Source of the DNA: Erysipelothrix sp. | Lineage (GTDB): Bacteria > Bacillota_I > Bacilli_A > Erysipelotrichales > Erysipelotrichaceae | Length of the DNA stretch: 32,136 bases | NCBI GenBank assembly: GCA_012735275.1 | Contig: JAAYHR010000017.1 | Location: forward strand, 1 to 32,136 | Direction: 5' to 3' | Shown here: piece by piece, positions 12,499 to 28,366 of the stretch | How the letters are laid out: each line of letters opens with the position of its first letter | Numbering within the stretch: position 1 is the first letter of the stretch | Made by a program: the position numbers and the translations under genes | Notes under the pieces: generated by a model | Told to the model about the DNA's origin: nothing | The model's input: only the letters and a program-made list of their open reading frames with translations | The model's database searches: none

Positions 12499-15400
12499 TT
12501 AATTACCTGCTAAATGTTTTAAGCGATTATAACGATATTCCGCATCTTGACGCGACTTATCAAATAGATCAGCCGCATTATCAGGATTGATATTAAATAG
12601 TGCCGAGTAACGACGCTCTTGTAATAAGAAATCTTGATACTTATCAAAGTCAGGAGCTGGTGAATCAATTGTTAATGGAGTTTCTAATTCAGGATTATAT
12701 CTGTATAGAGTCCAGTAACCTGATTGAACCGCTTCTTTTTGACGGTTTTGATGATTCGCTAAACCACCTTTGATTCCATGTTCAATACATGGTGAGTAAG
12801 CAACAATTAATGATGGACCACGATATGCTTCAGCTTCTTTAAAGGCTTTAATCGTTTGCATACGGTTAGCCCCCATTGAAATTGATGCAACATAGACGTG
12901 ACCATAAGTCATCATAATTTGTCCAATATCTTTCTTAGATACATCTTTACCACCAGCTGCGAATTTCGCAATTGAAGCTGCTGCTGAAGATTTAGATGAC
13001 TGTCCACCAGTGTTTGAGTAAACTTCTGTATCTAATATTAGAACGTTAACATCTAATTTATTCGCAAGAACATGGTCTAATCCGCCATAACCAATGTCAT
13101 ATGACCAACCATCTCCACCAATAATCCAAACAGATTTAGAAATTAAGTCTTTTTCAAACTCAAGAACATCTTTAACACGTTCTGATTTAGAAGCTTTAAC
13201 TAATGCTAATAAATCTTTAACTAAGAAGCGCTCTTCAATACGATCGCCCTTAACAGCTAAGTATTTATCAATTACTTCTAATAATTCTGGCTCAACTTCT
13301 GTACGTGCATCTTCTAAGATTGTAACAATCTTCATTGATTTAACTTCTTGCGCGATTTGCATACCAAATCCAAATTCAGCATTATCTTCAAATAGTGAGT
13401 TAGCCCATGCAATCCCCTCATCATTTTCATCAGTAACAAAGACTGAAGATGGAGTAGACCCACAATAGATTGATGAACAACCTGTCGCATTGGCAATTAA
13501 CATATCACGACCGAATAATTGTGAAGCTAAACGGTAGTAAGGAGTTTCCCCACAACCAGCACAAGCGGCACTTACTTCAAAGTAAGGTTTTAAGAACTGT
13601 GAACCTTTAATTGTATCTGTTGAGAAATAATCTGATTTATATTCAGTTTCTTTATATAAGTAGTTAGCTAATGGTGCTTCATGCATTTGCTCATTAACAT
13701 CAACCATAACTAATGCTTTCTTACCACCCTTACCTGGACACTCTGTTGCACATAGTGAACATCCAACACAGTTATCAGGCGAAACTTGAACACGGTAGTA
13801 TAAGTCTTCCATGTTTGGTCCCATTGGTTTTAGTGTTTCAACAAACTCAACTGGTGCTGCATCTAATTCTTCCTTAGTTAATAAGAAAGTTCTAATTGTC
13901 GCATGCGGACAAACAAATGAACAGAATCCACATTGGATACAGTTTTCTGGAATCCATTTCGGAACTTGAGTAGCAATTTGACGGTGTTCATCAAAAGCAA
14001 CGTTATTTCTAAGTGATCCATCTAAAACATCATTATCAATAAATGCTGAAACTGGAAGATCATAACCATTTAATGAGTTAATTTCATTAGCAAAGTTATC
14101 GAAGTAATCATCACCAGTACCTGTAGGTGCAATAACCGTTAATTCAGACCATGCAGGATCAACAGTAATTTCTTCTAAGCCATCTTTACCTAAGTCAATC
14201 GCACGGTGGTTAGCATCAACAATTTCTTGACCTTTTGAACCGTAAGTTTCAGTTGCTGCAGCCTTCATGTAATCTAGTGCTTCACTGTATGGCATAATTT
14301 CTTCATTTAAAGCAAAGAATGAAGACTGTAAGATCGTATTCGTACGACGACCCATACCAATTGATTCCGCTAAATCAACTGCATTAATAATATAGAACTT
14401 AGCTTTTTTATCAGCTAATTGCTTCTTAACTTTATTTGGAATATGATTAACTAATTCTTCACCTGTAAATGTTGTAGAAAGTAAGAATGTTCCACCTGGT
14501 TTTAAATGTCTAATCATATCGTATTTAAAGACGTAAGCATCAAGTGAGCATGAGATAAAGTCAGCTTGGTCAACATAGTAAGTTGAACGGATATTATCTT
14601 TACCAAATCTTAAGTGTGAACGAGTTGCTCCACCAGCTTTTTTCGAGTCATATGCAAAGTAAGCTTGTGAATATAAATCAGTATTATCACCGATAATTTT
14701 AATTGAGTTCTTATTTGCTGAAACTGTACCATCTGAACCTAAACCATAGAATAGGCATGATGTATAGTCATGATCTATTTCAAAGTCAGGATCACTAGCT
14801 AATGATAAGTTAGTAACATCATCGACGATTGAAATTGTAAAGCCTGTATGTGGATTTTCAGTTAATAAATGATCGTATACAGCTTTAATATCACGTGGTT
14901 GTGTATCTTTTGAAGATAATCCATAACGACCACCAACAATTTTTTGAACGTTTTTATAGCCTGAGAATTCAGCAACAACATCTAAGTATAAAGGTTCATG
15001 TGAACCTTGCTCTTTTGTACGATCTAATACCGCAACATGTGTAACAGAATCTGGTAAAACCGCTTTTAAATGTTTAGCTGAGAATGGACGGTATAAATGA
15101 ACCTTAATCATCCCAACTTTTTCACCATTTTTATTTAACTCATCAATTACTTCATGCGTAGTTTCAGTTACTGAACCCATTGCAATAATAATACGCGTTG
15201 CATCTTCTGCTCCATAGTAAGTAAATGGTGCATAGTGACGACCAGTAATTTTTGAAATATCTTCCATGTAATCAGCAACAATATCAACAATTTGATTGTG
15301 GTGTGTATTTTGTGCTTCACGTCCTTGGAAGTAAATATCATCATTTTCTGCTCCCCCACGTGTTACTGCATTACCATGAGGATTAAGTGCTCTTGATTTA

Positions 15401-26053: not shown

Positions 26054-26129
26054 TGGTGACGCGTACGGGGTTCGAACCCGTGGATGTCAGCGTGAAAGGC
26101 TGATGAGTTAACCGCTTCTCCAACGCGCC
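26054..26129 (-). tRNA. tRNA-Glu (UUC)
   Basis: The minus strand folds as a 76-base tRNA with acceptor stem GGCGCGT/ACGCGTC, anticodon loop CTTTCAC in a 5-bp stem, a GGTTCGAACC T-arm, and encoded CCA. Second of a two-tRNA transcript. Confidence 0.96.
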
Positions 26130-26153
26130 GTGTATTGGCAAATTTAATTTTAA

Positions 26154-26229
26154 TGGCGCCTGAAACAGGATTCGAACCTGTGACCGATCGGTTAACAGCC
26201 GATTGCTCTACCAGCTGAGCTATTCAGGC
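26154..26229 (-). tRNA. tRNA-Asn (GUU)
   Basis: 76-base cloverleaf with acceptor GCCTGAA/TTCAGGC, anticodon loop CTGTTAA, T-arm GGTTCGAATCC, discriminator G and encoded CCA. It lies 24 bases upstream of tRNA-Glu on the same strand. Confidence 0.97.
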
Positions 26230-27159: not shown

Positions 27160-27201
27160 ATTATAGCAATAAATAAAAATACTATAATTGATATATGTCA
27201 A
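27160..27201 (-). promoter_or_regulatory. Promoter and FNR-type box of the FNR-like gene
   Basis: TATAAT (27160-27165) places the start near 27153. No consensus -35 is present. Instead TTGACATATATCAA (27188-27201) matches the FNR box TTGAT-N4-ATCAA at 9 of 10 positions. It is centred at 27194.5, exactly -41.5, the class II activator position. Confidence 0.6.
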
Positions 27202-27210
27202 TTATAGTAT
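27172..27210 (-). terminator. Terminator of the HAD phosphatase gene
   Basis: Perfect 13-bp stem (ATACTATAATTGA at 27179-27191 and its complement at 27198-27210) with a 6-base loop, then TTTTATTT on the minus strand. The gene's stop codon (27202-27204) is inside the stem. Confidence 0.85.
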
Positions 27211-28023
27211 AAATTCTTCAATATATTTGGCTACACCATCTTGATCATTAGTGTAATCACTAATTCTTGTAGCATGATCAAATATCCCTTCGTTACCATT
27301 TTTCATAGCAACTGATATATCCGCTAACTTAAACATTGGAATATCATTGAAGTTATCACCAAATGCGTATAGTTTATAAGCATTTTTATTTAATAATTTC
27401 GCAACTTCTTTTCCTGCTAATCCCTTATCACTAGCTATGTTAGTTACCTCGATATTTAAATCATCACTTGATACTACAGTGTAGTGATCAGAGTGGCTAA
27501 TCATTTTCTTAATTTCATCACGAACTTCAATTGACTCAAAGTTTAGATGAAGTTTATCTATTGCTTTTAAAGTTTTTAAAAACGAGTAATTATCTTCCTT
27601 GACGATGCGAGATGCTTTAAATCCTTCAATATGTTCTGCTGGTATTACATTTCTTTCAACAAACATATCAAATAGTTTATCTTCACTATAAACCACGCCA
27701 TTTAAGACAAGATTTATATATGTTCGATCTAAATCTATCTCATCAAGAACCGAAAAGGCTAAGTCTGTATCTAGTGCATATGAAGCTACTAACTCTTTTT
27801 TCTTAACATCATATATAGTTGCACCATTTGAGCAAACAAAATAGCGTAAGTCAGCTTTTAATAAAGATTTTGGTAATTCTTTATAAGGTCTGGCTGTACA
27901 TGGGATAAACATATGCCCTGCTGCTTGCATTTTATTAATTATATTTAAGGTATAATCACTAACTTCAGAATCATCTCTTAGTAAAGTACTATCTAAATCA
28001 CTTAAGACTACAATATTATTCAT
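27202..28023 (-). CDS. Cof-type HAD-superfamily phosphatase
   Basis: The 273-residue HAD hydrolase of class IIB (Cof/YidA-like) probably dephosphorylates sugar phosphates or flavin-type phosphates. Catalytic D9 and D11 lie in SDLDSTLL. Motif II is PCTARPY, the conserved lysine is in IASDKGLAG, and motif III is AFGDNFNDIPMFKLAD followed by AMKNGNEG. The cap domain lies between about 85 and 185. The ribosome site GGGAGGT is seven bases before the ATG. The substrate cannot be told from sequence. It is a single gene ending in its own terminator. Confidence 0.92.
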   Translation of the reverse strand: MNNIVVLSDLDSTLLRDDSEVSDYTLNIINKMQAAGHMFIPCTARPYKELPKSLLKADLRYFVCSNGATIYDVKKKELVASYALDTDLAFSVLDEIDLDRTYINLVLNGVVYSEDKLFDMFVERNVIPAEHIEGFKASRIVKEDNYSFLKTLKAIDKLHLNFESIEVRDEIKKMISHSDHYTVVSSDDLNIEVTNIASDKGLAGKEVAKLLNKNAYKLYAFGDNFNDIPMFKLADISVAMKNGNEGIFDHATRISDYTNDQDGVAKYIEEFIL

Positions 28024-28175: not shown

Positions 28176-28251
28176 TGGTGGAGGCTAGCGGGATCGAACC
28201 GCTGACCTCCTGCGTGCAAGGCAGGCGCTCTCCCAGCTGAGCTAAGCCCCC
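28176..28251 (-). tRNA. tRNA-Ala (UGC)
   Basis: 76-base cloverleaf with acceptor GGGGGCT/AGCCTCC (one G-U pair), anticodon loop CTTGCAC, T-arm GGTTCGATCC and encoded CCA. The Ile-Ala pair is often found inside rRNA operons; here no rRNA is present. Confidence 0.97.
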
Positions 28252-28289
28252 ATAATTTATATATTCTATTGTTAATCAATCAAAGTAAA

Positions 28290-28366
<77 letters not shown>

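Follow-up and report, generated by a model that had tools for sequence, protein, structure and literature searches.

A predicted class II FNR promoter of an FNR-like gene, with its box in a terminator-like hairpin

We propose that positions 27160-27201 of the window (the whole 32,136-nt stretch of DNA that was analysed) form a class II promoter at which an FNR-like protein, of the oxygen-sensor type, would activate its own gene, a reading to which we assign a probability of about 0.7. The promoter geometry, the hairpin that overlaps it and the recurrence of this geometry with the regulator across the family are all read from sequence. Promoters of this type are ordinary and common to the relatives; the unusual part is only the overlap with the hairpin, which probably serves as terminator of the preceding HAD gene.

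The fnr-like gene and its promoter

A gap of 62 nt separates the HAD gene from the FNR-like gene, and on the minus strand the junction reads ATACTATAATTGACATATATCAATTATAGTATTTTTATTTATTGCTATAATAGGGTAAGAGGAGGAATATT-ATG, with the following features:

27202..28023, minus strand: Cof-type HAD-IIB hydrolase gene, upstream of the fnr-like gene and in the same direction
27179..27210, minus strand: 13-bp hairpin with a 6-nt loop (AUACUAUAAUUGA-CAUAUA-UCAAUUAUAGUAU), probable terminator of the HAD gene
27188..27201, minus strand: putative FNR box TTGACATATATCAA (sequence match), centred at predicted -41.5
27167..27178, minus strand: U-rich tract after the stem, TTTTATTTATTG
27160..27168, minus strand: extended -10 element TGCTATAAT (TGcTATAAT) of the fnr promoter
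27153, minus strand: predicted transcription start (A), placed from the -10 element, 14 nt upstream of the start codon
26468..27139, minus strand: FNR-like regulator gene, 223 aa, with Cys 3, 6, 11 and 109 and the helix PETLSRV

The HAD-fnr pair is flanked by minus-strand tRNA genes at 26054-26229 and 28176-28366 (Glu, Asn; Ala, Ile).

The regulator (P0001) carries the Pfam domains PF00027 (cNMP-type sensor domain) and PF13545 (Crp-type helix-turn-helix) expected of the superfamily. By alignment, C3, C6, C11 and C109 are predicted to correspond to the four [4Fe-4S] cluster cysteines of solved FNR, and SPETLSRV aligns with the recognition helix TVETISRL of FNR, retaining ExxSR; in FNR, the ExxSR helix reads TTGAT. 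We nevertheless call the protein 'FNR-like' only, since its score against the NCBIfam model of Fnr proper falls far under the curated cut-off (NF008365; 86.4 vs. 228 bits). Its own genome holds no other strong match to it, and scanning the contig collection with the protein returned distant relatives only.

The box TTGACATATATCAA differs from TTGATNNNNATCAA by one mismatch, as the sequence-only reading had stated, and is separated from TATAAT (27160-27165) by a spacer of 22 nt. From the centre of the box to the first T of TATAAT there are 29 nt, so that, if TATAAT occupies -12 to -7, the centre falls at -41.5 of the predicted start 27153, in agreement with the position first proposed and as in a class II promoter. 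The TTGAYNNNNRTCAA box arose in 0.035% of 20,000 dinucleotide shuffles of the 86-nt region, and a box followed 22 nt downstream by TANNNT arose in none of the 20,000 (0/20,000). The earlier statement that the promoter has no good -35 holds in that no -35-like hexamer was found at the right distance from TATAAT; it overlooked, however, that the -10 is extended. This TG makes basal, FNR-independent activity of the fnr promoter likely, and it weakens the missing -35 as an argument that an activator is needed. We also considered the TTGACA of the box as an ordinary -35 and rejected it: TATAAT lies 30 nt away and there is no good -10 16-18 nt downstream.

Under the model that we favor, the active dimer, probably with its Fe-S cluster intact, would bind TTGACATATATCAA and contact RNA polymerase on TGcTATAAT, and this contact would raise fnr transcription; the extended -10 would supply the basal level that starts the self-activation loop. 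At the fnr locus itself, we infer protein binding, activation and the signal sensed, as well as termination.

The hairpin between the HAD and fnr-like genes

The sequence-only reading had placed the box in the loop and upper stem of the hairpin; it supplies the loop and the top four of the 13 pairs, and the stem exceeds the length that an FNR box needs. Its 13 pairs, of which 2 are G-C, close a loop of 6 nt and yield -12.0 kcal/mol, within the range of the window's stronger hairpin-plus-U-tract sites (-11.7 to -17.8 kcal/mol); a longer stretch around the hairpin was more stable than 200/200 shuffles (z -3.66), and a stem of at least 13 pairs was formed by 0/3,000 shuffles of the 86-nt region. 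The stable hairpin and the U tract immediately after it (tail UUUUAUUUA) are those of an intrinsic terminator; the G-C-rich stem of one is absent, the clear terminators of the window carrying three to five G-C pairs. The hairpin was missing from the terminator scan because its 2 G-C pairs fall below the scan's 3-pair limit. The HAD stop codon, TAA, sits within the 5' arm of the stem, and in B. subtilis it is normal for a terminator to lie within a few nt of a stop codon (PMC7858274).

Palindrome, nine further pairs and U tract would together make a probable intrinsic terminator in the HAD transcript, which would shield fnr from HAD read-through and leave the fnr level to be set by its own promoter. 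We regard real termination at this hairpin as an even bet. The dual role of terminator and operator proposed at the outset is no more than plausible: the terminator-like stability and the U tract speak for it, whereas the fnr gene of the congener has neither box nor hairpin. A literature search of incomplete coverage returned no FNR box inside a terminator.

The same geometry in this genome and across the family

Whole-genome sites were located by pattern search. The box pattern occurs at 24 places in the whole genome vs. 8 for the reversed control, and the majority of those inspected in context fall inside genes, so the excess by itself proves little and what counts is position. This roughly threefold surplus of TTGAYNNNNRTCAA in G000, mostly intragenic, probably reflects codon usage. 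We disregarded box copies that fall within open reading frames of the window, e.g. those at 12634 and 29901, as probable chance matches.

Sites with the spacing of the fnr promoter were found elsewhere in this genome. TTGACATATGTCAA-n22-TATATT lies upstream of a DUF1858 gene that is followed by a DUF438/hemerythrin/PAS gene, and TTGATAGATGTCAA-n22-TAATAT lies upstream of a gene for an HMA-type protein. A further candidate, TTGATATTCATCAA-n22-TAAAAT (L047 1427-1440, G000:C20), comes straight after an ordinary terminator, ~190 nt upstream of a lipoate-protein ligase gene, and may be an additional target. TTGACATATGTCAA occurs twice in the genome. Its copy at L036 1501-1514 (G000:C1:26625-26638) includes a full -35 (TTGACA-17-TAAACT) and lies upstream of a FecCD-type transporter gene, itself after an ArsR-type regulator gene, with a second palindrome, GTTAGCAGCGGCTAAC, near the start; because this box overlaps a full -35, FNR binding there would more likely repress. 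Inverted words ACTAT...ATAGT are present in L036, L045 and window 27179-27210, all three of them TTGACATAT(A/G)TCAA regions, and may be chance in AT-rich DNA.

A comparison of the spacing in related genomes, which the sequence-only reading had called for, gave strong support to its class II geometry. Among 33 family genomes with an ortholog of the regulator, the pattern TTGAYNNNNRTCAA-n14..30-TATAMT gave 46 matches, with n=22 in 12 and n=21 in 10 (22/46 at 21-22 nt, where chance would put ~5 of the 46 into any two bins out of 17; the binomial p of 1.6e-9 overstates the significance, since the species are related and hence not independent and since these two bins were picked after seeing the data). 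The control set of 33 (32 family genomes without a listed regulator match at 1e-20, plus the congener G177) gave 13 matches, 0 at 22 nt and 1 at 21 nt. The peak appears with the ortholog and not in the genomes without a close one, which links the regulator to the class II geometry. Taken with the protein features and the same-geometry promoters in this genome and in a congener, this leaves the class II geometry first proposed well supported.

The family sites are mostly built on TTGAT halves. Predicted targets in the family are heavy-metal P-type ATPases, HMA proteins and DUF1858/DUF438 genes, together with small proteins partly similar to the Fe-S repair protein RIC; in several genera, boxes of class II type precede genes for heavy-metal P-type ATPases, for HMA proteins and for RIC-like proteins (L098, L099, L100, L102, L104, L106). 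Judged from sequence, the recurrent boxes look as if they marked a conserved regulon for handling metals and repairing Fe-S clusters.

The regulator gene itself is placed under such boxes in four other genera (G011, G155, G164 and G179). In G011, G155 and G164, fnr is the last gene of an operon-like row that begins behind a class II box and includes P-type ATPase and RIC-like genes, with HMA genes as well in G011 and G155; in G179, a class II box (TTGACTTAGGTCAA-n22-TATGAT) lies upstream of HMA and fnr is next. In the species of the window, fnr follows an unrelated HAD gene and has its own box. We infer that fnr either retained its autoregulation through a rearrangement or acquired it again afterwards. 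An FNR protein that activates its own gene has a precedent in Rhizobium fnrN (PMC7888657), and for E. coli FNR the standard position for activation is -41.5 (PMC3688515).

The only other species of the genus compared that has a match to the regulator gene, G178 (67% identity), keeps the HAD-fnr order. Its fnr intergenic region holds TTGAAATAATCAA, a 13-nt sequence that does not qualify as a box, and forms no strong hairpin. At a contig end of G178, TTGATATTTGTCAA-n22-TATAAT lies upstream of an ORF whose product begins MKKFSLDEKV, resembling the start MKISVDEKV of the DUF1858 protein, and site type and spacing are thus conserved at this DUF1858-like target and not at fnr. Loss of the box with the stem kept in close relatives had been named as evidence against the sequence-only reading; in G178 both are absent, and the comparison is uninformative on this point.

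Other junctions of fnr genes resemble that of the window to varying degrees. In genus g28 (G167, G168), a canonical terminator, GAAGAAGTGTGACGGAAGTCACATTTTCTTTT (-13.1 kcal/mol), follows the fnr stop codon, and its core, GTGACNNNNGTCAC / GTGACGGAAGTCAC, lies exactly 22 nt before TATACT, upstream of a DUF438-like gene (L030; G168:C15:63771-63814); its half-sites are not TTGAY. This fnr-DUF438 junction would be a second operator/terminator overlap, similar in layout. In G251, the fnr ortholog has an extended -10 promoter that likewise overlaps a plain terminator but carries no box and shows another spacing, so that such an overlap can arise without FNR control. The hairpins of the fnr-DUF1858 junction in genus g56 (TGTGACTT...AAGTCACA), whose weak box-like core precedes TATAAT by 22 nt, were considered as operators and rejected; we take them to be plain terminators because those genomes use TTGATTCAAATCAA elsewhere.

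Alternative readings and comparison with known systems

Three points count against auto-activation through a box that doubles as a terminator: the box is missing at the fnr gene of G178, the extended -10 could act without an activator, and the stem has two G-C pairs. They lend themselves to other explanations, the confidences of which are not exclusive, since an operator without a terminator agrees with the favored model as far as the operator goes. That operator might stand alone, the extra symmetry being incidental or stabilizing the mRNA 3' end, with HAD and fnr partly co-transcribed, and we hold this to be a serious contender at somewhat less than even odds. It would account for the few G-C pairs (two, vs. 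three to five in the window's clear terminators), for the HAD stop codon inside the stem and for the congener's keeping the gene order without a hairpin; it has to contend, however, with 13 perfect pairs followed directly by a U tract, a stem length that none of the 3,000 shuffles reached, and with the normality of terminators close to stop codons in B. subtilis (PMC7858274). Conversely, the palindrome might be the HAD terminator only, with the extended -10 alone driving fnr and the match to the box arising as a side effect of an AU-rich stem. The energy of the hairpin and its U tract would fit, as would the boxless fnr promoter of the congener and the overlap of terminator and boxless extended -10 in G251. 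We nonetheless consider this unlikely, as it needs a stem that ends in TTGA/TCAA around a 6-nt loop and that sits at precisely the 22 nt from the -10 at which the family's other boxes lie, and box plus -10 at 22 nt appeared in 0/20,000 shuffles.

Very unlikely, in our judgment, is negative autoregulation, with the protein bound to the box and repressing the fnr gene. Three things would favor it: the fnr gene of E. coli is under negative autoregulation, the extended -10 permits activity without an activator, and the motif copy at C1:26625, overlapping its full -35 (TTGACA-17-TAAACT), is in a position that suits repression. At fnr, however, the box sits at -41.5, the activating position (PMC3688515), where the family's boxes cluster. 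Auto-activation from a class II box remains our preferred reading. A broader idea, that some FNR operators in the family are built from the preceding gene's intrinsic terminator, we regard as quite unlikely. One palindrome would then end the upstream RNA and set the activator at -41.5, and binding and read-through could affect each other; this would cover fnr here and the fnr-DUF438 junction of the related genus (GAAGAAGTGTGACGGAAGTCACATTTTCTTTT, core 22 nt before TATACT).

If true, the overlap would be a very compact arrangement, fitting for a small genome: a single palindrome would insulate the regulator gene from its neighbor at the RNA level and switch it on at the DNA level. More solid is the prospect of an FNR regulon open to testing, which would comprise fnr itself as well as metal-type P-type ATPase, HMA, RIC-like and DUF1858/DUF438-hemerythrin genes; in the literature searched, we found no FNR regulon described for this lineage. 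The parts are of known kinds, and the operator/terminator overlap is the unusual element. Like the class II FNR promoters of E. coli (narG, dmsA, nirB, nrfA; PMC3688515), the fnr promoter combines a single putative FNR box, centred at predicted -41.5, with a -10 that lacks a good -35; unlike them, it controls the regulator itself, its -10 is extended and its box lies in the terminator-like hairpin of the preceding gene. Rhizobium fnrN (distal anaerobox; PMC7888657) likewise has an FNR-type protein that activates its own gene from an anaerobox in activating position, but it carries an extra proximal, repressing box where no second box was seen here, and the bacteria are distant. HcpR regulons (PMC1274295) have an FNR-like motif, TTGACnnnnGTCAA, and targets of redox or nitrosative-stress type; of such sites, TTGACATATGTCAA is present at two places in this genome, but TTGAT halves prevail among the family sites, the predicted targets here comprise P-type ATPase, HMA, RIC-like and DUF1858/DUF438 genes, and the cysteines are of FNR type. 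Finally, the Flp/ArcR proteins (e.g. FlpS of Streptococcus suis; PMC5039431) are also CRP/FNR superfamily regulators of Gram-positive hosts (here presumably of low-GC type), yet FlpS activates arcABC, while the protein described here has all four FNR cysteines and predicted targets that are metal-related and Fe-S repair-like.
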